Assembly: GCF_000737575.1 (NCBI RefSeq)
Contig: NZ_CP006270.1
Location: 623,163 to 687,162, forward strand
Source: Synechococcus sp. KORDI-49
Lineage (GTDB): Bacteria; Cyanobacteriota; Cyanobacteriia; PCC-6307; Cyanobiaceae
Reading direction: 5' to 3'
Length of the DNA: 64,000 nt
A model generated the notes under the pieces. The model was not told where the DNA came from. It worked only from the letters and a program-made list of their open reading frames with translations, and made no database searches. Positions 5,427 through 22,685 of the stretch are shown in pieces. Each line of letters begins with the position of its first letter. Within the stretch, counting starts at the first letter, position 1. The position numbers were made by a program, and so were the translations under genes.

Positions 5427-5500
5427 CGGGGAGTGGCGCAGTTTGGTAGCGCGCTTGCTTTGGGAGCAAGATGCCGCAGGTTCGAATCCTGTCTCCCCGA
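5427..5500 (+). tRNA. tRNA-Pro (anticodon TGG)
   Basis: A 74-nt cloverleaf with acceptor CGGGGAG/CTCCCCG, anticodon arm CTTGCTTTGGGAGCAAG carrying TGG, and T arm CAGGTTCGAATCCTG. CCA is not encoded. Its 3' 45 bases form the left copy of a 46-bp repeat found again at 15350-15395; integration leaves the tRNA intact. Confidence 0.96.
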
Positions 5501-5501
5501 T
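5456..5501 (+). repeat. attL: left 46-bp attachment repeat (3' part of tRNA-Pro)
   Basis: Begins TGCTTTGGGAGCAAG and ends CTGTCTCCCCGAT. It is identical to 15350-15395 over 46 bp and diverges on both sides, as expected for an attachment site made by site-specific recombination in the anticodon/T-arm part of a tRNA. Confidence 0.93.
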
Positions 5502-5535
5502 GCCTAATGAAGTCAGTCCCCAGCTGACATCTTCG

Positions 5536-5560
5536 CCGCCCCTAGTGGGGCGGTTTTTTA
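5536..5560 (+). terminator. Rho-independent terminator for tRNA-Pro, supplied by the element
   Basis: CCGCCCC-TAGT-GGGGCGG followed by TTTTTT. It lies 36 bp downstream of the tRNA, inside the element, and replaces the host terminator that now sits beyond attR. Confidence 0.85.
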
Positions 5561-5575
5561 TTGAAAAGCCACGGA

Positions 5576-5628
5576 TGTGTGCAAAATGTGTGCATAGATC
5601 ACGGCGCCAACAGGGTTTTGCACACAAC
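5576..5628. promoter_or_regulatory. Left integrase arm-type repeats (TGTGTGCAAAA)
   Basis: TGTGTGCAAAA at 5576-5586 is followed at an 11-bp step by TGTGTGCATAG, and an inverted copy GTTTTGCACACAA lies at 5616-5628. The 19-bp string 5576-5594 recurs exactly at 15225-15243 next to the integrase start. Paired short repeats near both attachment sites are the usual layout of tyrosine-integrase arm sites. Confidence 0.65.
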
Positions 5629-5931
5629 TTTGCGGGCAGCAGGTAGGACCTCTTGACAGAATCGGAAAGCGTGTAAGGCTCTTTTCAAGCATTGCTGGAA
5701 TTTCTGACTATTCAGTTCACGCTGGGTTAAGGCTCTTGTTGGCCTCCCGGTAGGAATGCAAACCGCGGGGTCTGACTGTGCCCCCGTGACCCTGACAAGA
5801 GGGAGAGCAGTCACAGAGCAGATTCGGACGTGACGAGTCCCTGTCCTGAGGAGAATTGTCAGTCAGAAAGGACGGTTAAACCAGTGGGCGAGAACTGGGG
5901 TTCCGACTGGGTTTGCTCCTCTTTCAGCAAG

Positions 5932-6246
5932 ATGACTCATTTTGAGGAATGGGTGCATGAGCCCGAAGCAGCAAAGTTGCTATCGGTCAAACAAAGCACC
6001 CTTCGTAGCATGCGCCGTCAGCGCAGGCTGGACCCTGGAACGCACTGGATTTACGCGACGGGGGCAATTGGTGGGCCAGTCATTTACAACATTCCATCAA
6101 TTCGAGAGATGCAGCGACGCCGCACTCTTGAGGCTGTCAAATCGGAAGATGAGCGCCGAGAAGAACTACTCAAACGGCGCAGTCAAACAATTGAAAGCTA
6201 CAGAGACAACTACCGGAACCAAATCATCAAAGAGGTGCAGGCATGA
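5932..6246 (+). CDS. Putative HTH DNA-binding/excisionase-like protein
   Basis: A 104-residue basic protein starting MTHFEEWVHEPEAAKLLSVK. The segment EPEAAKLLSVKQSTLRSMRR (residues 10-29) looks like a winged-helix/MerR-type helix-turn-helix of the excisionase class, followed by a charged helical tail (DERREELLKRRSQTIESYRD). An upstream GTG at 5830 extends the frame, but the ATG at 5932 gives the more natural N-terminus. Its stop overlaps the next start as ATGA, so it heads a three-gene operon with the RepA-like gene. Role as excisionase or as regulator of the element is inference. Confidence 0.6.
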   Translation: MTHFEEWVHEPEAAKLLSVKQSTLRSMRRQRRLDPGTHWIYATGAIGGPVIYNIPSIREMQRRRTLEAVKSEDERREELLKRRSQTIESYRDNYRNQIIKEVQA

Positions 6247-6518
6247 AAAAACCCCCTGCATCAACAGGGGGCCAAGCACAAAACGATCTACTGAATGTTA
6301 CAGCCGAGTCCAGAAACGGACAAGCTGCGTCCATTCAGTCCAGAGAAACTTGGCCCTGGCAAGACATTGATGTCTCCAATACCAGTGCCCTGCTGAGGCA
6401 GGGCCGAGAGCAAGGCTGGTCAGCCGAGCATTACCAGCGAATTGCAGAAGCACACGATTGTCGGTTCCCTATGGCTGCCCTGATCTGGGAACAGTGCGCG
6501 CGGAGGGTTCAGAAATGA
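6243..6518 (+). CDS. Small element protein of unknown function
   Basis: A 91-residue protein with a polar N-terminus and a C-terminal helical part (ALLRQGREQGWSAEHYQRIA). No family recognised. The start overlaps the stop of the upstream gene and its own stop overlaps the start of the ATPase gene (ATGA at 6515-6518), which strongly suggests a translated operon member. It may be an accessory to the replication ATPase; there is no direct evidence. Confidence 0.6.
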   Translation: MKKPPASTGGQAQNDLLNVTAESRNGQAASIQSRETWPWQDIDVSNTSALLRQGREQGWSAEHYQRIAEAHDCRFPMAALIWEQCARRVQK

Positions 6519-8017
6519 ACACTCCAATTTTCAGCACCAAAGAAGAACAAGTGGCGTTCCAAGAGGGCATCGCAATGGAACGCGCTCGGCAGGCCACACA
6601 GCAGAACAACAGATCAGCTGATCCTGCTGCTGATCTAAAGATGCTCCGCGCAAGGGCAATGGAAATCGTCCAGGACGAAGAGATCACCTCACAAGATCGC
6701 CTCGCGCATCTCAGGGCATTAAGCGACAACCAAGCTATTCATCGGTTCCAAGAAGCAGAGCTTCGGCGAATGTTATGGGATGCGCGCCGCGCACTGAATA
6801 GTCCTGCCGGTCCAATCGAGCAAGGAGGCCAGCTTCACATCAGTGATGCCCCTTGGCTGTGGAATGGTGTGTTCATTCGCGGTGTAACAAACCTGATCAC
6901 CGCAGCACCAAAGCTAGGCAAGACCAGATTGGTGACATCACTGTTCGGAGCATTGGCACATGGTCGAGACGAGTTTCTTGGCCGACGGCTTCACCGCGGA
7001 GAGCCACCAAAGTTTCTGATCGTCGGGTCTGATCAACCCGAACGTGACTGGGCCAAGTGCCTGAAACTCGCGGGCCTCCTCACCTGTGACAACCATATGT
7101 GGGACTGCATTGTGGCGCTGTTTCACAAAGGTGCTCCCCTGCACCTTGACGACGAGGGCATCGAAACTATCGCCGGTTACTGCAGAAAGCATCCCAACTT
7201 GATTGTTGGAATCGACAGCTATCACGCCTGTACGGCTCAGATGGGCCTGCAGGAGAAGGATGCATCTTTCGCCGATCCACTGCTTGACCTGCAAGAGGCG
7301 ACGGCTTGTTATCACCCGACCATTGCCCTCATCCATCACAGCAAAAAGGGTGGTGGCACTAGAGCTTCAGAAGCCAGCCGCGGCAGCAATGCACTTCCTG
7401 GGGCTGTGTCTCAGACCATCACATTGAATTGGTGCCAAGACAACAGCGGCAACCCGCTGGCACCGCGGGACAACCGTTTGAAGCTCAGCACCGAGGGCAG
7501 AGAGGACATGCCTCTCGACATGGTGATTGAGCAGACCGATGCGGGCTGGATTTGCCATGGCAGCGGCGAGGAGGTGGCTCAGGCCCAAGCCATCCAAGAG
7601 GTGATCGACAAGCTGGAAGACCGACAACACCAAGCTTTGCGGGATATGGCACATCACTGGAAAGCCACCCACCGCGGCATGGATGCAGTTCACCTCGCAG
7701 ACGCATTGGACTGCATGCCGAACCGAGCGGCAGAGACGATCACCGCTCTGGATCGCAAGCACCTACTGCAGCGCGCTGGTGAGCGACCCGCCGGACCCAA
7801 GGGAGGCAAGCCAGCGAAGCTCTACCGCCCGGTAGATATCGTACTGCCCTTATTCCCATTGAAATCGGAGATTTCGGAAGAACCGGTTGTTGACGTTGAA
7901 GCCACGCCAGCCGCACCAGAATCAATCACCGGTTTGACCGGTAAAACTGACAACCTGGTTGATCGGGTAACGCAAGCCAAGATTGAACCCAGCCGTGTAC
8001 CGAAAGCGTCGGTCTAA
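6515..8017 (+). CDS. RepA-like AAA/RecA-fold replication helicase ATPase
   Basis: A 500-residue protein. An N-terminal helical region is followed by a RecA-fold NTPase: Walker A NLITAAPKLGKTRLVTSLFG at about residue 125, Walker B with LIVGIDSYHA near residue 228, and the ALIHHSKKGGG loop near residue 273, which is typical of RepA/AAA_25 hexameric helicases of plasmids and phages. The C-terminal 120 residues are compatible with a winged-helix module. It probably unwinds the element's origin or drives its replication after excision. The start was chosen at the ATGA overlap with the gene before. Iteron-like repeats lie in and just after its 3' end. Confidence 0.75.
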   Translation: MNTPIFSTKEEQVAFQEGIAMERARQATQQNNRSADPAADLKMLRARAMEIVQDEEITSQDRLAHLRALSDNQAIHRFQEAELRRMLWDARRALNSPAGPIEQGGQLHISDAPWLWNGVFIRGVTNLITAAPKLGKTRLVTSLFGALAHGRDEFLGRRLHRGEPPKFLIVGSDQPERDWAKCLKLAGLLTCDNHMWDCIVALFHKGAPLHLDDEGIETIAGYCRKHPNLIVGIDSYHACTAQMGLQEKDASFADPLLDLQEATACYHPTIALIHHSKKGGGTRASEASRGSNALPGAVSQTITLNWCQDNSGNPLAPRDNRLKLSTEGREDMPLDMVIEQTDAGWICHGSGEEVAQAQAIQEVIDKLEDRQHQALRDMAHHWKATHRGMDAVHLADALDCMPNRAAETITALDRKHLLQRAGERPAGPKGGKPAKLYRPVDIVLPLFPLKSEISEEPVVDVEATPAAPESITGLTGKTDNLVDRVTQAKIEPSRVPKASV

Positions 8018-8031
8018 CCGGTACAACCGGT
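7928..8031. repeat. Iteron-like pairs ACCGGT-N3-ACCGGT
   Basis: Two pairs of ACCGGT with exactly 3 bp between half-sites: 7928-7942 (spacer TTG) and 8017-8031 (spacer ACA), 89 bp apart, the first inside the RepA-like gene and the second starting at its stop codon. The arrangement could be a replication origin or an operator. Confidence 0.5.
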
Positions 8032-8139
8032 TGTTGAAAGGAGAAATCTCCCAGACATGGCAGACTCACCGCATCTGGAAGCTCAATTCTGCCGCTGAAT
8101 TGGGCTCTGCAAACAAGATCTTGAAGTACCTCCTCATTT

Positions 8140-11100
8140 TTATACCTGAACTGAGGAAACAAGTTCGTGCAAACCAACAATTGCCCGCAGGATTGTAATT
8201 GCATCCGAGACCCCTACCTGACCATTGCCATCAACATCCATTAGAGTGATCGGATCAACTCCTGGAAATTCAGCGAGGCGATCTTCAAGCCCAACAATAT
8301 GTCGTAAAACCATAATCGCATCTGAAACCTCATGCTGCCCACTACCATTAATATCGCCAATCAATACATCTCTTGACTGAAAAGATCCTATTGAAATCTG
8401 ATCGTTGCCGGTAAAACCAAATTCGTTTTGGCTTCCAGTCGGATTTACCACCTCGTCAGCTCGTCCTTGGACCCTGAATGTTATCGAGCCCTCATCGCTC
8501 CTGTTAAAGCTATCAGTAACAATGAATCCAACAACGACATCAATAACTTCTCCCTCGTTCAGACTCTGATAGGGAGCACCTCTCGTATCTATCGTGACGA
8601 GACCATCTGCAGAAAAACTGATTCCAGCCTGCTCCGCAGTCAGCAGAGCCTCTGATTCACCTAATGAGACAGTTTTCAAGAGAAAGCTAGATGCGTCAAA
8701 CTCGGAGTCAGGATAGCCCTTATACTTAACCAGTTCGGAATAAATATCCCCGAAGATTTTTCCACTATATATTTCATCCTCTCTTATAGGCGGTGCAGCG
8801 GAAACATAGTTCTTGGCAATTGGCCCGGGCAATGTGGTCGTCTGCCTTATTGAAAATGAAGCCCCTTCTGGAAAGGCTGAATACGGAATGTCATCTTTAT
8901 GATGATATGGCAGTTCAACTGAAGCAATAGGATTGCCTTTAAAAGCGTTGTCACCAATCGAAAGAGTTGAGTCGGGAATCACGACTCTCGTTAATCCATT
9001 ACCTACGAATGCATTGTCACCAATCGAGACGACGGAGTTCGGGATTGATACCTCTATTAGGCTATTCTCTGCAAATGCGTAATCACCAATATTAATAACG
9101 GATTCTGGAATAGCGAGCCGCAAAAGCTCATTGCTTTCAAACGCGGAATTGCCTATCGCCAATACCGAGCTAGGTATATCAACTTCTTTTAAATTGTTAC
9201 CGTAAAAAGTGTAGTCACCTATCGAAACGACAGAGTCGGGAATGTCGAGAGATGTTATTAAATTATGAGCAAATGCGCCCATTGACATCCAAGTGTCGGG
9301 GATAAAAAATTGGGCGAGCTCATTCCACTTATCACTAGAATCAATCTCTCCAATGGTACTAATAGAGTCTGGAATGACAACCTCCTTTAGGTGGTTTCCT
9401 GCAAAAGAGCCAATGCCAATTGATGATATGGAATCTGGAATGGTGACCTTATCTAGGCCACTTTTATAAAAAGCATAATTATCCACTATCTCCATGGAAC
9501 CCGGGATGGCTAGTTTTTTTAATTCACCTCCTTCAAAGGCGCCCATGCCGACAAAGGTGACAGAACTGGGTAAATCAATTTCCGTCAAATCGTTGCCCTT
9601 AAAGGCAGAATGGCCAATTGATCTAACTGAATTAGGGAGTGTTATTGCTATCAAGCTGTTTCCTTCAAAGGCAGAATTCCCGATCGACACAACGGAGTCT
9701 GAAATAAAAGCTTGCTCTAGGTTATTCCAATAAAATGCTTGATCACCAATCGATATGACATTTTCAGGAATACGGATCTCAGACAGGTCATTGTATTTAA
9801 ATGCATTGTCTCCAATAGATATTACGGAGCTTGGAATCAGAGCATTTGTCAATTGATTGCCTTCGAAGGCAGAATCGCCAATCGAGATTAAGCTGTCGGG
9901 AAGGCTTATATTGAAAATATTTTTGTATTTAAATCTCCCATCAGACGGTATCTCAGTCGAACCTTCATAGACATACAAGTAATTATTCCACAATTCATAT
10001 TTAAACTCGGGGAGAGGAGTAGGGGTTTGGACAGGAATTGGCGCTGGGCTTGGGCTTGGCGCTGGGCTTGGGCTTGGCGCTGGGATTGGGCTTGGCGCTG
10101 GAGGCCAGGTGTCCACTGCCATTGCTACTGAGACTTCAACAGCGCTGGCATGTCCGACTGAGTCAGTGAAAGCCCCTGCTGCAACTGAAATCACACCATC
10201 AGCGCTGCTGTTGCGTGTCGGCGTGAAGGTTGCTGTGTAGGAAGCCCCTGTGCCCGCAAAATTACTGAGGGCGCCGCCGCTGGCAGTCACATCCTCGAGT
10301 GCGAAATCTGTGGACGCTTCCGATAGGTTGAAACTGATTTCGGCCGTTTCACCAAACGTCAGTGACGTGTCGTCGCTTGTGATGGTGATGGTTGGAGCTG
10401 CTGTGTCCACCGTCATGGTCACCGAGCCAGCGCTGCTGGCATTACCAGCTGCGTCGGTGAAAGCTTCGGCTGCAACTGAAATCACACCATCAGCGGTGCT
10501 GTTGGCTGCCGGCGTGAAGGTCGCTGTGTAGGCAGCCCCTGTGCCAGCAAAATCGCTAAGGGCACCGCCGCTGGCATTCACGTCTCCCACAGCGAAATCT
10601 GTGGCAGCTTCCGAGAGGGTGAAGTTGATGCCAGCAGTTTCACCTGCGATCAACGAATCATCACTTGTGGTGATTTCAATGGTTGGTGCTGTGGTGTCCG
10701 GCGGGATCGTGTTCACGCTGTAGGTGATGCTCTCCACTCCGGTGTTCTTGTTGCCAGCGGCATCCGTGAAGCTGTCAGCAGCCACGGAGACAACACCATC
10801 CGTGGTGCTGTTAGCCGTTGGCGTGAAGGTTGCTGTGTAAGACGTCCCGCTTCCTTCAAAATTGCTCAGCTCACCACCGCTCACGGTCACATCTTCTGCC
10901 GTGAAGTCAGATGATGCATCCGAGAGAGTAAATGTGACGGTTGCCGTCTGACCCACGCCCAGTTGCTGAGTGTTGGTGGATATCGTCACCGTTGGTGCGG
11001 TGCGATCGACCGTGTCGATCCGCATAGAGACTGACGCACCGTCGCTGTTGACGTTGCCAGCAGAGTCGGAGAAACTTCCGGCTGCCACAGCGACCATACC

Positions 11101-11889
11101 AGTGGTAACGCTTTGCTCTGCCGGCACGAAAACAGCCGTGTACTCCGTGGGGCTGTTGGTGGTGAAGTTAATCATCTCACCACCGCTTACGGTTAGATCC
11201 TCCAGCGTAAAGTTCTCGGAATTCTCTGACAGTGTGAAGGTGATAGTTTCAGTGGTTCCTGGCGTCAGGATGTTGTTGTGCCAGCTTGTTGAAAGAGCAA
11301 TTGTTGGCGCCTGTGTATCGACCGTAATAGCAATGTTGGCGCCTTGACTGTTAGCTATACCAGCAGAATCTTTAAAAGTGTCGGCAGCGACGGAGATAAC
11401 ACCTTGACTGGTGCTGTTCGCAGTAGGCGTGAATGTTGCTGTGTAGGAATTACCGCTGCCTTCAAAGTTACTCAGAGCGCCACCACTGGAGGAGATATCT
11501 TCGACGCTAAAATCAGTGGAGGCGTCCGATAGAGTGAAGGTGATTACGGCTGTTTCATCAATTCCTAGAGTGATATCATCGCTGGCTATCGCAACTCTCG
11601 GCGAAGAAGTTTCTGATGCAACTGCATCAATATGGTCAGCAACTTGTTCAGGTAAATTGCCATTTTCTAATTGTAAGGATACATTATTTGCGTGCCCAAG
11701 GAGCAAGATATCACTATCACTGTTCTTGGCTGCTATATCTAGATCGCTATATGCACAATCCGCTATGCAGGGCGAAGCATGGGAGGCAGAATTTGCATAG
11801 CCACTCCACTCAGAGATTCTAAAAACTAGATTCCACCATGGAATCGAATCTATTAGATGCACTGATTTTCTTGCTGAATTTTTAGCCAT
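8140..11889 (-). CDS. Large surface protein: Ig-like repeats, LRR_5 (BspA-type) repeats, dockerin-like tail
   Basis: A 1249-residue protein. After about 90 unassigned N-terminal residues come five Ig-like repeats of 95-105 residues (about 95-590), each with a SYTATFTP-N-V-VAAxxFxDxAG pattern. A Pro/Ser/Ala linker at about 593-625 follows. Then about 14 LRR_5/BspA-type repeats of about 23 residues (about 640-1020), with units like IPDSVVSIGDYTFYGNNLKE. The last 75 residues hold two dockerin-like Ca-binding loops (IGDINGSGQHEVSDAI and MDVDGNGQVGVSDAI). No clear signal peptide is seen from the ATG at 11889; a TTG start lies 7 codons earlier. Base composition is more AT-rich than the neighbouring genes. 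It is likely a cell-surface or secreted adhesion/defence protein carried as cargo. Confidence 0.8.
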   Translation of the reverse strand: MAKNSARKSVHLIDSIPWWNLVFRISEWSGYANSASHASPCIADCAYSDLDIAAKNSDSDILLLGHANNVSLQLENGNLPEQVADHIDAVASETSSPRVAIASDDITLGIDETAVITFTLSDASTDFSVEDISSSGGALSNFEGSGNSYTATFTPTANSTSQGVISVAADTFKDSAGIANSQGANIAITVDTQAPTIALSTSWHNNILTPGTTETITFTLSENSENFTLEDLTVSGGEMINFTTNSPTEYTAVFVPAEQSVTTGMVAVAAGSFSDSAGNVNSDGASVSMRIDTVDRTAPTVTISTNTQQLGVGQTATVTFTLSDASSDFTAEDVTVSGGELSNFEGSGTSYTATFTPTANSTTDGVVSVAADSFTDAAGNKNTGVESITYSVNTIPPDTTAPTIEITTSDDSLIAGETAGINFTLSEAATDFAVGDVNASGGALSDFAGTGAAYTATFTPAANSTADGVISVAAEAFTDAAGNASSAGSVTMTVDTAAPTITITSDDTSLTFGETAEISFNLSEASTDFALEDVTASGGALSNFAGTGASYTATFTPTRNSSADGVISVAAGAFTDSVGHASAVEVSVAMAVDTWPPAPSPIPAPSPSPAPSPSPAPIPVQTPTPLPEFKYELWNNYLYVYEGSTEIPSDGRFKYKNIFNISLPDSLISIGDSAFEGNQLTNALIPSSVISIGDNAFKYNDLSEIRIPENVISIGDQAFYWNNLEQAFISDSVVSIGNSAFEGNSLIAITLPNSVRSIGHSAFKGNDLTEIDLPSSVTFVGMGAFEGGELKKLAIPGSMEIVDNYAFYKSGLDKVTIPDSISSIGIGSFAGNHLKEVVIPDSISTIGEIDSSDKWNELAQFFIPDTWMSMGAFAHNLITSLDIPDSVVSIGDYTFYGNNLKEVDIPSSVLAIGNSAFESNELLRLAIPESVINIGDYAFAENSLIEVSIPNSVVSIGDNAFVGNGLTRVVIPDSTLSIGDNAFKGNPIASVELPYHHKDDIPYSAFPEGASFSIRQTTTLPGPIAKNYVSAAPPIREDEIYSGKIFGDIYSELVKYKGYPDSEFDASSFLLKTVSLGESEALLTAEQAGISFSADGLVTIDTRGAPYQSLNEGEVIDVVVGFIVTDSFNRSDEGSITFRVQGRADEVVNPTGSQNEFGFTGNDQISIGSFQSRDVLIGDINGSGQHEVSDAIMVLRHIVGLEDRLAEFPGVDPITLMDVDGNGQVGVSDAITILRAIVGLHELVSSVQV

Positions 11890-12232
11890 GAAACACTGAG
11901 CCCTGCGCAAGTCTCGAGAATTCGAAAGCTGGAAGATCCAGTATATCTCTACATTTTGTCGATTTCCATAAAGCGAATACTATTATTTTCGCGCGAGTCG
12001 TGACTCACTGTCAAGTATCTCAGATGATCCAATTGAGGCTTGCTTCACCAGCAAGGGCCCCTGGGTAGATTGGCCTCCCTTATCTTGCAAAACCAACACA
12101 AAAACCGCATGTACTGCAGCACTGGTGAAGCAGTAAGACGCAGCAGATCGCTCAGAAACTGAGAAGCTGTTATCGGGAATCCTTGAGCAGCTGCATCATT
12201 TTGTTCTGCCTAGCTTTCGTGATTAAGATTGT
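11890..12232. other. AT-rich intergenic region inside the element
   Basis: About 340 bp between two minus-strand genes. It should hold the promoter of the large surface protein gene. I see no ORF, tRNA or clear terminator in it. Confidence 0.4.
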
Positions 12233-12790
12233 CTACGGTATAATTGCTGGGAAACCGTTGAATCTCACCTGTCTTTCTATGTCTTCAAGCCTGCGTTGAG
12301 TTTCCATGTTTCTAATATTTTCCTGAAAGCTCTCAAGCTGTCTAGCGCGCAATGACTCTGCCTCATAATCACTGAGGCAAATCTCTTTGCCTTTTATCAA
12401 GCCAAACAAAGCTGTTTTTCGATACACCCTTTTTCCTGGTGGGCATTGATTTGAATTCCAACTGTTGTCACCTCCCTTCTGAAGGGAGCGGGTATTTAGT
12501 GTTTCTAATTTCAAGGACTGCAATCTTTTGAATTGATTGTTGTAATACCTGAAACCGGCCCGGTTCATTGGGACGGTAAGTTTTTCATTGGGTTTCATTC
12601 CCGTTGTCCCCGGTGGTGTCTTTGCCGCTTCTGAGACCGTCATCACATTTTCTGTGCCGTCAGTAATTACAAGGTCAGCTGAACCGTCATTTCTTCCGGT
12701 AACAGTGCGCGCAAATAAATCGGCGTAGATGCTCGCCTCAACTGGTTGAGCTGCTGCCAGCAGCGGCAATAGCAACAGGAGGCGTTTCAT
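12233..12790 (-). CDS. Exported protein of unknown function
   Basis: A 185-residue protein with a clear Sec signal peptide (MKRLLLLLPLLAAAQPVEAS, probable cleavage after VEA). The mature part has two cysteines (QCPPGKRVY and KGKEICLSDY), which may pair, and a charged helical C-terminus (ESFQENIRNMETQRRLEDIE) that may form a coiled coil. No family recognised. It sits on the same strand as, and upstream of, the large surface protein gene, so it may be related to surface display; that is inference only. Confidence 0.7.
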   Translation of the reverse strand: MKRLLLLLPLLAAAQPVEASIYADLFARTVTGRNDGSADLVITDGTENVMTVSEAAKTPPGTTGMKPNEKLTVPMNRAGFRYYNNQFKRLQSLKLETLNTRSLQKGGDNSWNSNQCPPGKRVYRKTALFGLIKGKEICLSDYEAESLRARQLESFQENIRNMETQRRLEDIERQVRFNGFPAIIP

Positions 12791-12836
12791 GCCCCAAGTA
12801 TGGATCGCAGCTCTGCTTCCCTCAACTGACGGATGA

Positions 12837-13109
12837 CTACCGCACAGGCGGTCTGCACCGGACCCAGCCTGTTTTGATCATCGTCTCCCATGCCTCGATC
12901 GCGTTATGCCGCAGCATCCGTCTGCGCGTCATCGGTTCGGGTGGCCTGGGTGGCACCCATCTGTAGGTGCGCACGGCAACCCACTGTGCATGAGCGGTCG
13001 CTGAATCGGGCTTGAACTGAACGAGCTTCTGCTGATCAGCATTCGCCAGCCATCCTTCGCCACCGGGCTTCTCCGGGGGGTCATGCGTGGCACGATCCTT
13101 GCTCGGCAT
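12837..13109 (-). CDS. DUF1651 domain protein
   Basis: A 90-residue protein with the DUF1651 pattern, a family common and multicopy in marine Synechococcus and Prochlorococcus: GGEGWLANADQQKLVQFKPD early, then TRRRMLRHNAIEAWETMIKT and a final GW. Function unknown. I chose the ATG at 13109; an upstream start at 13130 is possible. Its presence inside the element shows that DUF1651 genes can travel as cargo. Confidence 0.75.
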   Translation of the reverse strand: MPSKDRATHDPPEKPGGEGWLANADQQKLVQFKPDSATAHAQWVAVRTYRWVPPRPPEPMTRRRMLRHNAIEAWETMIKTGWVRCRPPVR

Positions 13110-13184
13110 GGGATGAAGTCTGGCCAACACGGCTACCTGTGCTGGGGACGGATTTCACGACCGCCACACTCCCCCTTTCAGGGG

Positions 13185-13874
13185 ATGTGGTCTGAGCTGA
13201 TCAGTCCCATTCTCTTGTTGGAGCAGTTTTATGCCGGGGCTTTGGAAAATTACTGGTATTGCAAACAGTGGAAAGACCCCGCGAATCAGTCCAAGGGAAC
13301 GGTGTGGACGTACTGGAAAGCCGATGCGTTTAGACATGCTGGAGTCCCTCGCTTAGAGGAGGGGATGGACTGCCTGATGGGCGGGCATCATCCGAGGGAA
13401 TGCAGGCGGGGCACGAAGTGGACAGCGACGTGGGAAGACGGAACTTCATTCACGATTCGCTCCAGCCCCCAAGCAACAAAGCCACTCATGGCATCCATTG
13501 CGCAGCGCTGGGGGAACCCGCCTCGAATCCTTAAGCGTGAAGGGGGGCAAGCATTCGCAGTCGAATCCCTTGAGATACGGCGAGATTCATTTGTTTATCT
13601 CGTCCGGCTGCTCACGTTCGAGGAGACCGCGAGCGGTGCTGGCTTCTTCAAGATCGGCAAGGCCTCATCAATCCCAAACCGAATCAAGCAGTTCGGACCC
13701 TGTGAGCTGATCGCTCATGAAGCCCATCAGGATGGACCGGCAGCTCTGCATCGGGAGAAAGAGCTACACAAGCAATTTGCTGCTTACAGGCGGCCTGGAA
13801 CTGAGATTTTCATCCTGAGACCAGCAGAGCTGCAGCAAGTGGTGGCTTCCATGGCGAAATCCGACAAGCGGTGA
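13185..13874 (+). CDS. T5orf172 / GIY-YIG-like domain protein
   Basis: A 229-residue protein if started at the ATG at 13185 (frames from 13083 are also open but overlap the DUF1651 gene). Residues 137-222 form a T5orf172-type GIY-YIG fold: FVYLVRLL, then GFFKIGKASS, an LHREKELHKQFAAYR helix and the FILRPAEL strand. Such domains are nuclease-like and frequent in phages and mobile elements. The N-terminal 135 residues are Trp-rich and unassigned. It could act in DNA cleavage or defence; activity is not shown. Confidence 0.65.
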   Translation: MWSELISPILLLEQFYAGALENYWYCKQWKDPANQSKGTVWTYWKADAFRHAGVPRLEEGMDCLMGGHHPRECRRGTKWTATWEDGTSFTIRSSPQATKPLMASIAQRWGNPPRILKREGGQAFAVESLEIRRDSFVYLVRLLTFEETASGAGFFKIGKASSIPNRIKQFGPCELIAHEAHQDGPAALHREKELHKQFAAYRRPGTEIFILRPAELQQVVASMAKSDKR

Positions 13875-13965
13875 GCGAACCCCACCGGCTTGGGTCCTTT
13901 CTGGCCAAAACGGCCATGGGTCATCCTGCGGCACGGTTTTCAACTAGCGTCGCTTATTGAGAGTT

Positions 13966-14030
13966 GTTAACCGGGTTAACAATCTGCTGCCAGTTAACGG
14001 CGAGTTGATTGACGTGCAGAGTCATTAACG
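13966..14030. repeat. Cluster of GTTAAC sites at the integrase 3' end
   Basis: GTTAACCGGGTTAAC at 13966-13980 is a near-palindrome. A further GTTAACGG at 13993 and ATTAACGG at 14024 follow, the last one overlapping the integrase stop codon. Possible protein-binding sites; no function assigned. Confidence 0.3.
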
Positions 14031-15197
14031 GTTGACCGCCGCAAAATTTGCTGCCGTCGCATCTGGCTTGAAACGTGCATACGACTTCAGATGCACCTCG
14101 ATGGTGTGGCCCATCGCCTCGCTGATCTCTGCAACGGCAAGCCGTGCCGCGTGAGCCTGTTTGGCATATCGATGGCGAAAGCTGTACGGCGTCAGCTGTT
14201 CGCCCTGGTGCTCGGCTTCATCACGCAGCGCCATCCAGAACGCACGACGGCGCAGGTACTGATTCAGCGCCTGCCCACCATCGCCGTTGCGGTTTAACGG
14301 CGGGAGCTGCTCACCGACCTGCAGGCGTGCCTGGAGATTCCAATCGATGGCAGTGCCATCGGCATCACGCAGAAGCAGCGGGTGCAGCCTGCGGGGTTCC
14401 GTCTTGGCTCCTTTAGTGCCGCCCATCGATTTCTGATAGATCGTCCACAGCTCCGGTCCGTCTGCCCCGTCCTTGATGCGGAGGTGGCGTAGCTCTTCAG
14501 GACGGAGCCCATAAACAGCACAGAGCTGAATAGCGAACCGCCAGCGGTCATGCACTTCGCCTTTGGGGAGGTTGTCCAGCAGCTGGAGGATCTGAGCATC
14601 ACTGAGGGGGTATCCGATGCGCTTGGCCTTCAGCACCTCTGGAAGCGCCGCAGGCGGGCTGTAAATGGGCTTGAGGTGTCCGCGCTGCACCGCCCAGTTC
14701 AGGAAGCCGTACAGCTTCTGACGAGACGTCTGACGCATGCGTGAGCCCTGCTCCCATTGCGCAAGGCATTGCATCGCCAACGCCTCGCCGTCCACGGGTG
14801 GTTTGCCTTCGAATGCCTTGGTGCAGTTACGCAGGACTGGCAGATAGAACGTCTTCCAGGTGGTATCACCAGCGTTAGGGACAAACTGCCGATATTTTTC
14901 GATCAACTGGCTGCAATCCAGCTGCTGATGGCTGCTGGCGGTGTTGGCGTTCTGCGCTGCAGCGGCAAGGGTGATCTGTCCACCAGCCCACCGCTTGAAG
15001 ATCTGCTGAATGCGGGGCAGGGCCTGAGTGGAGCCCTCAAGGGTCCAGGCATAAGGCAGAGAAACGCTGCCAACGTCCTGAACTTGCAAACGCATCCGAC
15101 CACGGCTGTTGAGCACCTTCCAGCCCGATCCACATGACACACGCACTTGATCGCGAAAGGGCTTGACCCAGGGCTCGCTGAAGGAGATGGCTGGCAT
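14025..15197 (-). CDS. int: Tyrosine recombinase (integrase) of the element
   Basis: A 390-residue phage-type integrase. The C-terminal catalytic domain has the first Arg in VYGLRPEELRHL (about residue 232), box II in LTPYSFRHRYAKQ (about residue 340) and the nucleophile region MGHTIEVHLKSYARF with Tyr near residue 373. A SAM-like core-binding domain covers about 90-185. It probably recombines the 46-bp tRNA-Pro repeats. The gene points inward from the right end, and its promoter region holds the right arm-type repeats, so it may repress itself. Confidence 0.92.
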   Translation of the reverse strand: MPAISFSEPWVKPFRDQVRVSCGSGWKVLNSRGRMRLQVQDVGSVSLPYAWTLEGSTQALPRIQQIFKRWAGGQITLAAAAQNANTASSHQQLDCSQLIEKYRQFVPNAGDTTWKTFYLPVLRNCTKAFEGKPPVDGEALAMQCLAQWEQGSRMRQTSRQKLYGFLNWAVQRGHLKPIYSPPAALPEVLKAKRIGYPLSDAQILQLLDNLPKGEVHDRWRFAIQLCAVYGLRPEELRHLRIKDGADGPELWTIYQKSMGGTKGAKTEPRRLHPLLLRDADGTAIDWNLQARLQVGEQLPPLNRNGDGGQALNQYLRRRAFWMALRDEAEHQGEQLTPYSFRHRYAKQAHAARLAVAEISEAMGHTIEVHLKSYARFKPDATAANFAAVNR

Positions 15198-15224
15198 CCC
15201 GGGAGAGGCATGTTGCTACCAAAG

Positions 15225-15247
15225 TGTGTGCAAAATGTGTGCAAAAC
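15225..15247. promoter_or_regulatory. Right integrase arm-type repeats (TGTGTGCAAAA x2)
   Basis: TGTGTGCAAAA at 15225-15235 and again at 15236-15246, in direct tandem at an 11-bp step, 28 bp upstream of the integrase start. The 19-bp core is identical to 5576-5594 at the other end of the element. Confidence 0.65.
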
Positions 15248-15349
15248 GTCAAGCAGCTAGTGACAGCAGGTGACACCTCATGGCAGCCAAACCCAGTCAG
15301 AACTCGCATCACGACTGGAGTAAACGAGTCAGACGCGAAACAGGGGTGC

Positions 15350-15395
15350 TGCTTTGGGAGCAAGATGCCGCAGGTTCGAATCCTGTCTCCCCGAT
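15350..15395 (+). repeat. attR: right 46-bp attachment repeat
   Basis: An exact copy of 5456-5501. It holds only the anticodon-loop to 3'-end part of tRNA-Pro; the 5' half of a tRNA is missing, so it is not a second tRNA gene. Confidence 0.93.
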
Positions 15396-15430
15396 TGCCA
15401 TCTGAGCGGTGCCCCAAACCGCTTACGCGA

Positions 15431-15459
15431 ACCCGGTGCCGTCGGCATCGGGTTTTTTA
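15431..15459 (+). terminator. Original host terminator of tRNA-Pro, now beyond attR
   Basis: ACCCGGTGCC-GTC-GGCATCGGGT followed by TTTTTT. It lies 36 bp after the tRNA-like end of attR, as a tRNA terminator would, and was separated from tRNA-Pro by the insertion. Confidence 0.8.
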
Positions 15460-15561
15460 TCGCCAGGGTGAGATCATCACGATGCGCGGATCGTCCTGCC
15501 GTGAGCTCAACCTCTCTCTTCCTGCGGGTGATTGGGGAGATGTCCAATCAGCGCTTCTGCC

Positions 15562-15804
15562 ATGGCACGAAATCAGCAGGGCTCCGACAGATCCCTCCAA
15601 TCTCAAATCACGGTGAATGGTCAGATCATCAAGCTGAGCGTTCCCAGTGATCAGGCCGTTGTTGAGCGTGTTGCCGCCTTGATCGACCGCAGGGTGGCGG
15701 AAGATGATTGGCGACCGCACAGCTCCAGAGAAGCGGCGCTGAATTGCTGGGCAAAGCTCGGCGGCATCCGGGTCGCAGTGCTGAAAGCCAAAGGCCTGCT
15801 CTGA
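15562..15804 (+). CDS. Conserved small protein of unknown function
   Basis: An 80-residue protein starting MARNQQGSDRSLQSQITVNG. The middle has a predicted beta strand then the helix SDQAVVERVAALIDRRVAED. No family recognised. Codon use fits the backbone. It is the first host gene after the element. Confidence 0.6.
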   Translation: MARNQQGSDRSLQSQITVNGQIIKLSVPSDQAVVERVAALIDRRVAEDDWRPHSSREAALNCWAKLGGIRVAVLKAKGLL

Positions 15805-15846
15805 CCTCGATGGATGGAATTCGCCCAGCGGCCGTGACTCTCGACG

Positions 15847-16092
15847 TCAGCCCGCCTCGGCTGCCCAGCCGGCTTCTCCCTGCTCTGAAAAACGAACAGC
15901 CCAAAGCTCTTCACTGGTGACTCGTCCGTTTTGATCCAGCAATTCCGGATGAACAGTTTGCAACCCTGTTCTGTCCGATGGCGCCGATGACGCTGAGTTG
16001 GCAGACACTCTCATCATTCGAAAGGCCTGCAGGAGCAAACAAATGAACACAACGGCGTAGGCCAACGGAAAAAGAATTCCGAGCATCTGCAT
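15847..16092 (-). CDS. DUF2973 family small membrane protein
   Basis: An 81-residue protein with one N-terminal transmembrane helix (LFPLAYAVVFICLLLQAFRM) and a cytosolic tail with the DUF2973 signature HPELLDQNGRVTSEELWAVR. The family is restricted to cyanobacteria and has no known role. Confidence 0.8.
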   Translation of the reverse strand: MQMLGILFPLAYAVVFICLLLQAFRMMRVSANSASSAPSDRTGLQTVHPELLDQNGRVTSEELWAVRFSEQGEAGWAAEAG

Positions 16093-16194
16093 CGCAAATA
16101 TTATGAAGAAACGTTAACGGCTGCGGCCGCCCAGCGCGTTCATGTTGTTTTGACAGACGGTCACGGGCTGAACACCTCGCTCACAGTCACCGGA

Positions 16195-16344
16195 ATGGCC
16201 GATCATCGTGGATTGATGAAAGATGAAATCAAGCTGGTCACAACGTTTCTGCTGCTGAATTTCTCTGTCGTCGCTCTGGCTGTCGCCGGGTATCAGAAGG
16301 CAGGCATGAACCTCAGCGCCGTGGTGAGCCACCTCGGGGGCTGA
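16195..16344 (+). CDS. Putative small single-helix membrane protein
   Basis: A 49-residue frame from the ATG at 16195, or 42 residues from 16216. It contains one hydrophobic helix (TTFLLLNFSVVALAVAGYQK). Nothing else is recognisable. It is divergent from the DUF2973 gene. Confidence 0.45.
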   Translation: MADHRGLMKDEIKLVTTFLLLNFSVVALAVAGYQKAGMNLSAVVSHLGG

Positions 16345-16485
16345 TGGCAATTGCTTGGCAAGGCATCCCGCTGCCGGCACCACCCCGACACGACCCTGAC
16401 ACGTCCTGCTCGCCTGCAAAGCTGCCTTCATAGACACAAGGCGGAGAATGCTGCCGCGTTAGAAGGCCTGCGTTGCCCGCAAACG

Positions 16486-16677
16486 ATGCCTCTGTTCCGA
16501 TGCCATGGCTGCAACATGCGCATTGAACGATCCATGGCGACCTACTGGCGCCACAAAGGCAAGCTGCTGTGTTCCTCCTGCCTGGACAGCCAGGACACGA
16601 TCGGGGCATCGCCACAGCCACGTCCACTTGATCCAATCCAGGACAAACAGGAGAACGACGAACACCATTCCTGCTGA
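16486..16677 (+). CDS. Small zinc-ribbon-like protein
   Basis: A 63-residue protein whose first part has two CxxC pairs: MPLFRCHGCNMRIERS and, 20 residues later, KLLCSSCLDSQ. This spacing fits a single zinc ribbon. The tail is polar and disordered. The ATG at 16486 is taken because the frame before it has no protein-like pattern. Confidence 0.55.
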   Translation: MPLFRCHGCNMRIERSMATYWRHKGKLLCSSCLDSQDTIGASPQPRPLDPIQDKQENDEHHSC

Positions 16678-16832
16678 CGCCCACAACCTCCCACGGCTGC
16701 CGTGGACAGCGAAGGCCAGCCGGACTACAACGGTTTTGTAGCAACAGCTACCCATCGTTCACTCCGCCACCCGGGGAGCGCAGCTCGATCCAAGCCAGGG
16801 AACGGGGGCTTGGGCATCGATGTTGAGTGATC

Positions 16833-17009
16833 ATGACGTCACTGTTCTGGAACGGCTCAGCATTCGTTCCGCGCGATCGAACATCGGCGAAGCGCGAGGC
16901 CGTTGTCCTGCGACTCGAGGCATCTCTGGCAGCCCCGGATGCCAAATCCACGCCCAGGCGCAGAGCTGCCGCTTATCTTCGGCGAAATGGGTTTCATTCG
17001 GCCCCTTGA
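16833..17009 (+). CDS. Small Arg-rich protein, tentative
   Basis: A 58-residue frame starting MTSLFWNGSAFVPRDRTSAK with a strongly basic helical second half (TPRRRAAAYLRRNGF). No family recognised. It precedes a small membrane protein gene on the same strand by about 50 bp. Confidence 0.4.
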   Translation: MTSLFWNGSAFVPRDRTSAKREAVVLRLEASLAAPDAKSTPRRRAAAYLRRNGFHSAP

Positions 17010-17057
17010 TCCATCGAGCAGATGGGGGCCACAAGCAACAACGCCCACCACACAGTC

Positions 17058-17315
17058 ATGACCGACCACAGCAACAGCCCGCTGTCTGTCCGCGAGATGG
17101 TCCGCGCCCATGCCTATCCGGTCCTTTCCGCTCTCTGCACCTTGAGTCTGATCAGCATCGGAGTGCTGCTCGTGCCACAGGCGGTCAGGCACCATCGTTT
17201 CAATCGCTGCGTCGATGCGCAGATTCAGATGCGCAACGCCATCAATCCCGAGAGCCAGCAAGGCCCCGGCAAGGTCAATTACTTAAAAGCTGTCGAGCAT
17301 TGTGAAGGCCGTTAA
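17058..17315 (+). CDS. Small membrane-anchored protein, paralogue of 17467-17715
   Basis: An 85-residue protein: N-terminal MTDHSNSPLSVREMVRAHAY, one transmembrane helix (ALCTLSLISIGVLLVPQAV), then an outer domain with NRCVDAQIQM and a final EHCEGR. The two cysteines likely form a disulfide. It shares the pattern AHxxPxL, one helix, NxCV and a C-terminal CxG with the next gene. Confidence 0.6.
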   Translation: MTDHSNSPLSVREMVRAHAYPVLSALCTLSLISIGVLLVPQAVRHHRFNRCVDAQIQMRNAINPESQQGPGKVNYLKAVEHCEGR

Positions 17316-17466
17316 GCAACAACCACACAGACAAAGCATTTCCTTCCTGTCAGCACGTTGGGAAAAACAGGTTCATCCGTCGTAGCGTGAGAAGCCGAAC
17401 AGAGAGCAATGGAGCTGAACACAGCCATTGCGATGGCGTTAGAACCAGGAGAGAAGCACAACATCA

Positions 17467-17715
17467 ATGTCAAAAACGCGCGACCTTCTCAATGCACACT
17501 TGCTGCCACTCCTGGCGACAGTCTCAACAGGAACGCTGGTCGGCATCCTGCTCATCGTCGATGCCGGCCTGTCCAACCTTGCACAGAATTCTCAACAAGC
17601 CAAAAACCACAACGCATGCGTCTACACAATCATGAACATTCCAGCCAACCAAAGGCCGGGATCCATTGAATTGAATGGAATGGCCGGTGCCGTTCGATAT
17701 TGCAATGGCGGCTGA
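17467..17715 (+). CDS. Small membrane-anchored protein, paralogue of 17058-17315
   Basis: An 82-residue protein: MSKTRDLLNAHLLPLLATVS, one transmembrane helix, then NHNACVYTIMNIPANQRPG and a final RYCNGG. It has the same layout and conserved cysteines as the neighbouring gene 150 bp upstream, so the two probably arose by duplication. Function unknown. Confidence 0.6.
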   Translation: MSKTRDLLNAHLLPLLATVSTGTLVGILLIVDAGLSNLAQNSQQAKNHNACVYTIMNIPANQRPGSIELNGMAGAVRYCNGG

Positions 17716-17902
17716 CAAGCCCCGTCTCGCAGGAGGTGACACCTGCCTGAAACAGGATCCTGCCGAATGGGAGTTGGCATTGAGAACACACGCAGCAGAT
17801 TGCTAGCCAGATCCGATTAAAAAAGTGGCGCTCTCCCACGGCAAGGATTTTTTCGCCCCAACTTTCTAAATTGTCAGCAGTTCATGCCACCACAAACGCC
17901 TG

Positions 17903-18349
17903 ATGACTGCGCTATCGCACTCCTCGGTTGTAAGCACTACACCATACGTCTGGTCACTTGTCCTTTCACTCGGCACGCTGCTGATCAGCATCATTCTGAT
18001 CTATATCGCTCGCTTTCAAGCAAAGCTTGAAATCAAGGATCTGGCTGCGCTTCGCACAATGTTTGATCGGTACCCTGCCTGGGGGAAACGTGCTAGCTGG
18101 GCACAGCAAAATAGTTTTGAATCGTTCACGATCCACGCACCAGCAACACTGCTGGCCGTGATTGCAAGCTTCAACGGTCAGACGCTTCCCGTGATCACCC
18201 TGTATGCCGCTTTGGCACACCCATTGTTTCGAGTGGCCTATATCAGCGCCTATGTGTTCAACGTGCCACTCGCCAGATCAGTGTTTTGGATGCTCGGCCT
18301 GGTTTGCAGTGGAATTCTGTACTTCACAGGATTCAATGCGCTGATGTGA
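17903..18349 (+). CDS. MAPEG family membrane protein
   Basis: A 148-residue protein with four transmembrane segments. The central block RASWAQQNSFESFTIHAPAT is the MAPEG signature (R-A-x-x-N-x-x-E) that binds glutathione or lipid in microsomal glutathione transferase-like enzymes; FRVAYISAYVFNVPLARSVF in the third/fourth helix is also typical. Bacterial members are poorly characterised; a glutathione-dependent detoxifying role is possible. Confidence 0.8.
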   Translation: MTALSHSSVVSTTPYVWSLVLSLGTLLISIILIYIARFQAKLEIKDLAALRTMFDRYPAWGKRASWAQQNSFESFTIHAPATLLAVIASFNGQTLPVITLYAALAHPLFRVAYISAYVFNVPLARSVFWMLGLVCSGILYFTGFNALM

Positions 18350-18388
18350 TGGGTCCAGGCAATCCAGCGTGATGAACGATCGGAAAGC

Positions 18389-18415
18389 AAAAAAAGCCGC
18401 CCCAGGAGGAGCGGC
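18389..18415 (-). terminator. Rho-independent terminator on the minus strand
   Basis: Read on the minus strand: GCCGCTCC-TCCT-GGGGCGGC then TTTTTTT. It begins 8 bp after the stop of the 31-codon minus-strand frame at 18423-18518, which supports that frame being a gene. Confidence 0.75.
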
Positions 18416-18422
18416 TGCAGTG

Positions 18423-18518
18423 TCACTTTTTAAGTGACGTCCTGGCCATCAGCTTCTGAGCGGCAGCAAGACGTTGCGCACGCAGAAGACGAGCCTGGAT
18501 CAGAGGGAGAGGAGACAT
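18423..18518 (-). CDS. Putative 31-residue basic peptide
   Basis: Starts MSPLPLIQARLLRAQRLAAA and ends in TSLKK; it looks like one amphipathic basic helix. A GGAG ribosome-binding site lies 7 bp before the ATG, and a strong terminator lies just after the stop. No family recognised; a longer frame exists upstream but lacks a better start. Confidence 0.5.
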   Translation of the reverse strand: MSPLPLIQARLLRAQRLAAAQKLMARTSLKK

Positions 18519-18653
18519 AACGTCGCTCCACAGCGCCCAAGCCCCCGTTGCATGGCTTGAGACGAACTGCACCCGGGAATCCCAGGCCAACGATTTGAAT
18601 ACTTTACCAAGAATCTGTATCGGTTGTGACTGCCGGACCGATGGGCCAGTGAA

Positions 18654-18971
18654 GTGGCCCCGATCAAGCGGATTAGGCTCCTGACTGAGTCCATTGCATC
18701 GCATCAGCCATTGCTTTCCATCCTTGCCCTTGGTTTGATGTTGCCCGCGGCTGCTCAGGCGGGCACATGCATGAGCTACGAAGCTGCTTACCAGCTTGAG
18801 AGCTTGCTGGCAGAGGGAATGCGCTGGAGAAATGCACTCCAGACTGTCATTGACGAAGGGTATTCCGACGGATCACATGCATGCTTGAAAGCAATCAAGC
18901 AGCAGGTCAATCAGTCTCCCTACGCATTTCCAGAGATTGAACAGGCTGTGTACAGACGAAGCGTTCGGTAG
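18654..18971 (+). CDS. Small exported protein of unknown function
   Basis: A 105-residue protein with a signal peptide (LLSILALGLMLPAAAQAGTC, probable cleavage after AQA). The mature part is helical with two cysteines (GTCMSYEAAY and SHACLKAIKQ) and may be disulfide-linked. The only start that includes the signal peptide is the GTG at 18654. Confidence 0.55.
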   Translation: MAPIKRIRLLTESIASHQPLLSILALGLMLPAAAQAGTCMSYEAAYQLESLLAEGMRWRNALQTVIDEGYSDGSHACLKAIKQQVNQSPYAFPEIEQAVYRRSVR

Positions 18972-19076
18972 GCGACAAGCTCTCCGCACTTCCCCATGGA
19001 CGACCAACAGACACCCTGTTCCTCATGGGAATGCATGCAGGCTTGCTGAGGTTGGTGCGAACACCTTGCCCGGAGC

Positions 19077-19193
19077 TCAAGAGGCATCTTCCGCTTCAGA
19101 ACGGAGAAAGCGTTTGCGCTGAGCCGATTCGTAACCGGTCAGTTCAACCTGTTTTTTGCTTTTGTTCTTACGAATGGTCTTGGCCAAACCCAT
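19077..19193 (-). CDS. Putative 38-residue basic protein
   Basis: An ATG-started frame beginning MGLAKTIRKNKSKKQVELTG and ending SEAEDAS. Very Lys/Arg-rich, with host-like codons. No family recognised; it could be nucleic-acid binding. No strong ribosome-binding site. Confidence 0.4.
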   Translation of the reverse strand: MGLAKTIRKNKSKKQVELTGYESAQRKRFLRSEAEDAS

Positions 19194-19443
19194 CAGAAAT
19201 GGTTGGAGTCCTTTCTTGCTCACTTGGTCTGCTCCGTTATCTGGATCGCGCGTTGTGGTCTCTTGGCCATTCGCGTTTATTGATTATCTCACAGACACAC
19301 AAATATCAGGATTTGTGTTGCGGAATGCAAATCCACCCAACCCTCGACGACCTCGGCCATGAGCCCAGGCATCGGTTGGTGGCATCTGGCACATCTCCTG
19401 CTGCGGGTCAGGAGTCATGGTTTGTGCATCCAGGACATCTCTC

Positions 19444-19587
19444 ATGGACTCCCAAAACAGGCAATGCCAGGACTTGAGCAATCAGCTCGCCGTCTATCGA
19501 GCATTCAACAACCGCAGCGCCACGGCAGCTGTTCTGCGACAAATGGCCAGTGCCCAATGCCCGATCGGAGCCTCCAAGCTCCATTGA
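19444..19587 (+). CDS. Putative small protein, 47 residues
   Basis: Begins MDSQNRQCQDLSNQLAVYRA and ends SAQCPIGASKLH; two cysteines flank a helical stretch. The frame remains open to an in-frame ATG at 19417 preceded by GGAG. No family recognised; supported only by protein-like composition and isolation between other genes. Confidence 0.4.
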   Translation: MDSQNRQCQDLSNQLAVYRAFNNRSATAAVLRQMASAQCPIGASKLH

Positions 19588-19638
19588 CAGCCCGCATCAG
19601 GAGTCGGAGGCTTGAGAGGCAGACGGCTTCAGCGAACA

Positions 19639-19839
19639 CTAACCCTGAGCAATCCAGGCGCTGGAGCCCGTTGCATGATTCAGCGCATTGCCAAGGCCTT
19701 CGCCAAAGCCTTCCACTGACACCAGCTCGCCACCCATGTTGCAGAGCTGGAACGTGAGATCGGCAATCTCAGCCGGTGCAGTGATCGGTAAACCGGCAGC
19801 TTGCTCGATCAATGAGATGCAGCTGTGGATCTCAGACAA
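19639..19839 (-). CDS. Small acidic protein of unknown function
   Basis: A 66-residue frame from a TTG at 19839: MSEIHSCISLIEQAAGLPIT, then EIADLTFQLCNMGGELVSVE and EGFGEGLGNALNHATG. The alternation of helix and Gly-rich turns looks protein-like. No ATG is available in frame. Unknown family. Confidence 0.5.
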   Translation of the reverse strand: MSEIHSCISLIEQAAGLPITAPAEIADLTFQLCNMGGELVSVEGFGEGLGNALNHATGSSAWIAQG

Positions 19840-20021
19840 CGGTTCATGAACCAGCTGGAGCCCTCATAACTCCCCTGAACCTGATTGTTCAAGGCTCAGC
19901 TGCTACCAAAGTCACAACCACCTTGCGCCGATCCAGAACCTTCATCACCCCAGGGGTGACGCGAATGGATGACACGAGGCTGGTTGAACAACAACCACGG
20001 CTCTCATCAAGTTCAAAAGGG

Positions 20022-20192
20022 CTAAGCCGCATCAATCTCTGCTTCGTCGTACAGGGCTTTGAGTTGATCCAACTCAGAAATCAGGTATTGGATCTCGAGC
20101 CAGTCCGTCGACAAGTCAATGGCGATTTCCAGGCGTTCAATCTGACGCTTCAGGAGCTCGGGCATCACGCGGGATATCTGTATTTCAATCAT
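20022..20192 (-). CDS. Small helical (coiled-coil) protein
   Basis: A 56-residue frame starting MIEIQISRVMPELLKRQIER with heptad-like hydrophobic spacing through IEIQYL and ELDQLKALYDEAEIDAA. It is acidic and probably one long helix or helical hairpin. Not recognised. Good codon use and a proper ATG support it. Confidence 0.55.
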   Translation of the reverse strand: MIEIQISRVMPELLKRQIERLEIAIDLSTDWLEIQYLISELDQLKALYDEAEIDAA

Positions 20193-20412
20193 GAAACCGC
20201 GTTCCGATAGGAATGCAATCCGCTGGGTGCTGATCAGGATTGATCGAAGATTCTCTGCAGCACATTCCGTTCACCCTGGAGTGAGTTCGCTCTCATTGGC
20301 TTGCCTAGCGGTCTGGGCTGCCTTGGACGAGCCAGAAAAACCCTGCCGAGCCACCAAGCCTGAAGACCGAGGAACGCGATACCGAGGAGCACCAGCTCAG
20401 TGGCTCCCAGCA

Positions 20413-20628: not shown

Positions 20629-20747
20629 GGCACACCCACACGAGGTGGCCAGTGTGGCACTGCTAGAACCTACGGAACGACGGCTCGTCCGGGGCCAATG
20701 AAAACGTGCCCGGCAGCAGTAGACTGATAGTAAATCGATAATTCAAC

Positions 20748-21797: not shown

Positions 21798-21842
21798 GGC
21801 ACCTCACAGTCGTGAGCTCAAGTTTTGTTCAAAGAAACGGAT

Positions 21843-22668: not shown

Positions 22669-22685
22669 TACTACGGCCAAGACTC

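Follow-up and report, generated by a model that had tools for sequence, protein, structure and literature searches.

The DNA analyzed here, a stretch of 64 kb (hereafter, the window), carries a direct repeat of 46 nt, reported in the initial annotation and re-found in our analysis, whose copies at 5456–5501 and 15350–15395 are 100% identical and spaced 9,894 bp apart. An exact 46-bp repeat at that spacing is far beyond chance in 64 kb. Both ARAGORN and Rfam place a tRNA-Pro(TGG) at 5427–5500, so the left copy forms the 3′ part of a tRNA that is intact, and the right copy consists of a 46-bp tRNA fragment. The 9,894 bp of foreign DNA in tRNA-Pro are an intact integrative element of a marine cyanobacterium, with the following features:

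5427–5500, plus strand: tRNA-Pro(TGG), the integration target (attB gene), intact at the left end (ARAGORN; Rfam RF00005, 68.6 bits)
5456–5501, plus strand: attL, left att core, 46 bp (exact direct repeat)
5502–5563, plus strand: conserved left end of the element (tRNA and left end 90–92% identical to G004, G151 and G061)
5577–5594, plus strand: left arm-type integrase sites, two tandem copies (GTGTGCAAAAT GTGTGCA; repeat search, exact GTGTGCAAAA count)
5616–5625, minus strand: left arm-type site, inverted copy (GTGTGCAAAA on the minus strand; exact motif count)
5932–6246, plus strand: HTH_17 protein, 104 aa, a longer GTG start at 5830 being possible (HTH_17, phrog_66, AF2 model)
6243–6518, plus strand: 91-aa ORF of the operon, overlapping each neighbor by 4 nt (weak local match in L153)
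6515–8017, plus strand: RepA-like ATPase of the hexameric-helicase type, 500 aa (AAA_25, E = 4e-12; phrog_30286, E = 6e-93)
8140–11910, minus strand: surface protein, cargo, with five Big_12 repeats, LRR_5 (BspA type) and a dockerin-like C-terminus
12233–12790, minus strand: 185-aa cargo ORF with a signal-peptide-like N-terminus, no family
12837–13130, minus strand: DUF1651 protein (E = 2.8e-13)
13083–13874, plus strand: T5orf172/GIY-YIG-type protein, 263 aa (PF13455, PF10544)
14025–15197, minus strand: tyrosine integrase, 390 aa, catalytic motifs present (PF00589, E = 2.3e-7; phrog_1)
15226–15246, plus strand: right arm-type sites, two tandem copies, directly upstream of the int start codon (exact motif count)
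15350–15395, plus strand: attR, right att core, 46 bp, tRNA fragment (exact direct repeat)
15396–25330, no strand: probably older low-GC island material outside the element, from attR to the first core gene (GC, relatives)

From left to right, the element carries an operon of the HTH_17 protein, the 91-aa ORF and the AAA_25 ATPase, then the surface protein on the opposite strand, the 185-aa ORF, the DUF1651 and T5orf172/GIY-YIG genes, and the integrase gene, which faces inward from the right end. The integrase next to the right repeat copy and the RepA-like operon at the left end, both named in the initial annotation, were recovered: the integrase gene (14025–15197, minus strand) adjoins the right copy, and the operon starts 0.4 kb inside the left one. 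The HTH protein matches phrog_66 and, at 21.7 bits (E = 2.4e-4), falls under the Pfam cut-off of 27 for HTH_17 (PF12728); it is 48–63% identical to the HTH proteins of six relatives, and the top PDB match of its AF2 model (pLDDT 85.7) is the putative excisionase 2kvv (E = 2.7e-3). It is probably an excisionase or an AlpA-like activator. The AAA_25 ATPase is, by its sequence, a probable replication protein; it is 34–35% identical to proteins of the Synechococcus siphoviruses S-CBS1 and S-CBS3 (annotated as RepA in S-CBS3), which in addition to this homologous helicase have full sets of virion genes and, in the isolates, lack an integrase (PMC6157547). These phage matches point to a marine picocyanobacterium as the host. 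Its fold matches, KaiC, DnaB and RSF1010 RepA, are of little weight because the model is poor (pLDDT 63), and a profile search against solved structures found RepA only at E = 0.45. The integrase is under purifying selection, with a dN/dS of 0.07–0.12 that reflects old divergence; the substitution ratios of the HTH and RepA genes were near saturation and were left out.

The dockerin-like C-terminal domain of the surface protein also occurs in other surface proteins of the same genome, and these common domains indicate that the element's surface protein is host-type cargo. Large surface proteins with the Ig-like repeats of the element are encoded at 692049, 1512739, 2427840 and 2472865 of the chromosome (G000:C1); one of them has an open frame of 4543 aa, and some also have the element's C-terminal domain. 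DUF1651 recurs near the integrase in relatives. No virion gene was found in the element with Pfam, PHROGs, NCBIfam and a TerS profile, in agreement with the initial annotation. Pfam and NCBIfam revealed no relaxase or conjugation gene among the eight annotated proteins of the element, and PADLOC revealed no defence gene in it, the T5orf172/GIY-YIG protein included.

The motif GTGTGCAAAA is present in exactly four copies in the 64-kb window, all of them just inside the two ends of the element, and tandem 11-bp repeats GTGTGCAAAAT lie inward of the cores, approximately 75 nt from the left one and approximately 125 nt from the right one. Arm-type integrase sites have this layout, which is established for lambda-type integrases. 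Since all four copies are located where the arm sites of an integrase belong, both ends form one recombination unit. Between the left core and its arm sites, a terminator-like hairpin in 5502–5563 stands in place of the tRNA's own downstream sequence.

In G004, G151, G152 and G154 (same genus) and in G075 and G123 (sister genus), att-bounded elements in tRNA-Pro have the HTH gene at one end and an integrase with 70–91% identity at the other, and G156 carries a decayed copy of an element with the same chassis. The replication genes and the cargo of these relatives differ from those of the window element. In place of its RepA-type AAA_25 protein of 500 aa, they carry VapE of 669 aa (G004), a VapE-type protein of 400 aa (G151), a zinc-finger-like protein together with AAA_25 (G152) or with a VapE-type protein (G154), or DUF3854 with AAA_25 of 759 aa (G075 and G123). 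The initial annotation had considered that related strains might all carry the same genes here with no att boundary; their genes differ, and the att boundaries are present. A further genome, G054, encodes at L155:11901-16631 a protein of 1576 aa in which primase-like, RepA-like and DNA polymerase regions are fused; an integrase lies upstream, and the C-terminal part of the protein that follows is TerS-like.

The arm sites also vary among the elements of the relatives, with GTGTGCAAAAT, GTGTGGTGAGC and GTGCGAAAGGC as the motifs of three integrase types (window, G151 and G154, respectively). Among nine non-redundant close integrases, the similarity of the arm sites correlated with the identity of the integrase N-terminal domain (r = 0.79; 0 of 20,000 permutations, a value that is no clean probability because the domain borders and the motif window were set after the sequences had been seen and the integrases are kin by descent), but not with that of the catalytic domain (r = -0.07). 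The raw correlation was weak in a wider set of 18 more distant integrases (r = 0.18, p = 0.057); with the catalytic domain controlled for, the partial correlation was 0.30 (p = 0.002). G075 has arms in common with the window element, with 79% identity in the N-terminal domain and 70% in the catalytic part, whereas G151 has different arms, with 77 and 90% identity, respectively; G152 carries two tandem integrases of different arm classes. These comparisons suggest that the elements have one attB in common but recombine via their own arms. In cluster K mycobacteriophages, which use a tmRNA site, 11-bp arm sites likewise differ between phages along with differences in the N-terminal region of the integrase (PMC3203893), so the principle was already noted there; our case concerns satellite-like elements in tRNA-Pro and adds a quantitative contrast of the domains.

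Six intact relatives carry a terminase gene, represented by an orphan small subunit in four of them and by the large subunit in two. The former is a phrog_34910 protein of 107–111 aa encoded after the replication gene in G004, G151, G075 and G123, and it is homologous to the small subunit of marine siphoviruses. For most of the 38 marine viral ORFs that we inspected, the phrog_34910 gene and the beginning of the gene for the terminase large subunit overlap by 1–4 nt, and portal and head genes come next; the designation TerS is based on this gene order. The large subunit (TerL) was found in G154 and G152; in G152 the profile match runs upstream across stops, so this copy may be damaged. With the TerS profile, no terminase gene was detected in the window element and no TerS in its genome. 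Thus, the description of the element as complete in the initial annotation holds for att, int, xis and rep, but the packaging gene of the six intact relatives is absent here. Of the 34 genomes of the genus, 21 have TerS-like genes and 6 a clear TerL (phrog_2, E below 1e-15), counts that depend on profile sensitivity. With the window's integrase as the query, an integrase was found no more than 20 kb away from 21 of the 35 best TerS places. G147 has a separate RepA-carrying region, with a RepA 50% identical to that of the window and a weaker TerS match. A terminase match at 2518408 in the window's own genome was rejected, as the same match of about 22 bits to a frame of about 345 aa recurs across the genus.

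A search with a RepA alignment revealed RepA of the window type in more than 40 marine viral contigs, although scans of the viral contigs with single RepA and integrase sequences had found nothing; a scan of genome contigs with RepA was also negative. Three temperate-looking IMG/VR contigs (L210, L211 and L228) combine this RepA with an integrase, beside which lies an att-like stretch of 45–46 nt, 89% identical to the att core (L210:4304-4348, L211:2955-3000 and L228:2953-2998), with repeated motifs on both sides. The integrase and the att-like stretch indicate that these apparently temperate phages use the same tRNA type. The motifs beside the stretch differ among the three contigs despite their similar genes. 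In a search for cos or pac sites by DNA similarity, the element shared no DNA with the viral contigs beyond the att core and none with phages, and the phage collection contained no relatives of the integrase or the HTH protein.

Taken together, we consider it moderately probable that the element is a minimal phage satellite of a picocyanobacterium, consisting of int, xis and rep with cargo. As its closest relatives have virus DNA-packaging genes, the element most likely spreads inside cyanobacterial virus particles. The initial annotation had left the choice between a phage satellite and a plasmid-like element; an intact integrative element of this kind is supported, and the terminase genes of relatives with the same integrase and the same tRNA site shift the balance to the satellite. 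For the window element we infer excision, replication, helper dependence and packaging. The integrase would catalyze recombination between a circular attP and the 3′ end of tRNA-Pro(TGG), its N-terminal domain gripping arm sites that are specific to the element and lie inside both of its ends, the HTH protein would direct excision, and RepA would drive replication of the excised circle, the DNA of which a helper siphovirus of an S-CBS1/S-CBS3-like group may package. Since the window copy has no small terminase subunit, packaging would need the helper's own terminase acting on a putative pac- or cos-like site. Several observations speak against a satellite: the element has no terminase gene and the genome no TerS, DNA matches to phages or viral contigs do not extend beyond the att core, and the integrase and the HTH protein are without relatives in the phage collection.

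The missing packaging gene also speaks for an autonomous plasmid-like integrative element, in which RepA maintains the excised circle and no dedicated helper is needed, transfer occurring through transformation, in vesicles or by generalised transduction. The place of RSF1010 RepA among the fold matches of the poorly modeled AAA_25 protein would fit, as would the lack of a conjugation domain in Pfam; however, no match was found among 72,556 plasmids, marine viral contigs and siphoviruses have RepA proteins of this family, and relatives on the same chassis carry terminase genes, so we regard this explanation as unlikely. Alternatively, the element may be a former satellite that has lost its packaging gene and is now a stable cargo island with a surface adhesin, excisable at most. 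TerS or TerL is present in the other intact relatives and neither in the window element, whose surface-protein gene lies directly behind rep, in the position of TerS in G004, G151, G075 and G123. Yet the att core and arm sites are exact, int, HTH and rep are open, and the low dN/dS of the integrase, though a measure of old divergence, points the same way; such a loss seems improbable. An identity with the tycheposons known from Prochlorococcus is compatible with the satellite reading and seems doubtful rather than improbable: by the descriptions available to us (PMC10872708, PMC11389934), the tRNA site, tyrosine recombinase and cargo are alike, the size falls within 4–200 kb (PMC10872708), and tycheposons are listed among proposed phage satellites (PMC11389934).

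Returning to the satellite reading, an orphan TerS, as in the relatives described here, is the packaging strategy of the PICI type. The window element resembles PICI in its int, excisionase-like protein and rep, but PICI come from a different phylum and other gene families; the small terminase subunit, frequent in PICI, is present in G004, G151, G075 and G123 and absent from the window element, and we do not claim PICI membership for it. Closer in build is PICMI of Vibrionaceae (PMC10803314), also small and marine, with an integrase, an HTH/AlpA-type protein and a replication protein and without packaging or capsid-remodelling genes. The PICMI model calls for a tyrosine or serine integrase, which the element has (PF00589, E = 2.3e-7), and for PF05930 or PF12728, to the latter of which the HTH protein, with its excisionase-like fold, scores 21.7 bits against the cut-off of 27. 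PICMI occupy fis and carry a DUF3987/DUF5906 primase, whereas the window element lies in tRNA-Pro of a cyanobacterium and showed only AAA_25 with Pfam; with site and primase differing, membership is not claimed. G004 has a weak DUF5906 match beside VapE. The picocyanobacterial element with integrase cluster158946 (PMC10187409) likewise has a tyrosine integrase in tRNA islands, but in tRNA-Phe or tRNA-Cys and not recognized by PHROGs, whereas the window integrase matches phrog_1. Temperate phages and prophages differ from the window element in their virion and packaging genes, and conjugative or mobilizable elements in their relaxase or conjugation genes, which Pfam and NCBIfam did not find among its eight proteins.

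We tentatively propose, short of considering it probable, a new family of picocyanobacterial satellites that compete for tRNA-Pro(TGG), with one chassis on which replication modules can be exchanged, with orphan terminase genes and with a private code of arm sites created by swaps of the integrase N-terminal domain. If this is true, several elements, and possibly helper phages, use one attB yet excise independently. The code relating arm site and N-terminal domain is simple and testable and could explain the separateness of tandem elements at one tRNA, while the hypervariable tRNA-Pro islands of picocyanobacteria become stacks of identifiable elements. According to a search of the open full-text literature, in which two papers came up and neither had them as its subject by title, phage satellites are thinly documented in marine Synechococcus; the locus provides a defined element, relatives with orphan TerS and culturable candidate helper phages.

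The GC content of the window is 46–58% from 5 to 25 kb and 62–66% outside. This variable low-GC stretch reaches about 25.3 kb, so the boundary given in the initial annotation is correct for the att-bounded element, but the element makes up only the half nearer the tRNA in an island of roughly 20 kb (5.5–25.3 kb). The remainder (15396–25330), probably made of older island layers, contains a weak ZapA-like match (15562–15804), a MAPEG protein (17903–18349) and a 390-aa protein without family (23359–24531); a reading of the last ORF as a second integrase, also 390 aa long, was rejected. The site was compared in 34 genomes of the genus, one per species, 28 of which have the left-flank gene. Between tRNA-Pro and the core gene at window position 26485 lie 0.45 kb in G147, 1.3 kb in G112, 6–12 kb in G131, G153, G168, G172 and G173, 21 kb in the window itself and 38 kb in G061. 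This spread marks tRNA-Pro as an insertion hotspot and G147, in which a core gene homologous to window 25331–25573 begins about 70 bp past the tRNA, as an almost empty site; the initial annotation had allowed for the lack of any such site. G151, with its ZapA-like gene near the tRNA, was rejected as an empty site, as it holds a 13-kb element with its own att repeat. The sequence of attR and the right flank, 110 nt in total, shows 86–89% identity with the left ends found at the tRNA-Pro of G152, G154 and G156, which is consistent with a newer element stacked on an older one or with a common native downstream sequence. In G061, the homologue of the core gene at window 26485 is directly followed by an integrase with 60% identity (L138:3682-5244), which may mark a second integration site, and a terminase large subunit lies about 7 kb further on. 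Within 30 kb downstream of tRNA-Pro, G152 (L256, L257) holds three integrases of the window's family, the third of which is interrupted.
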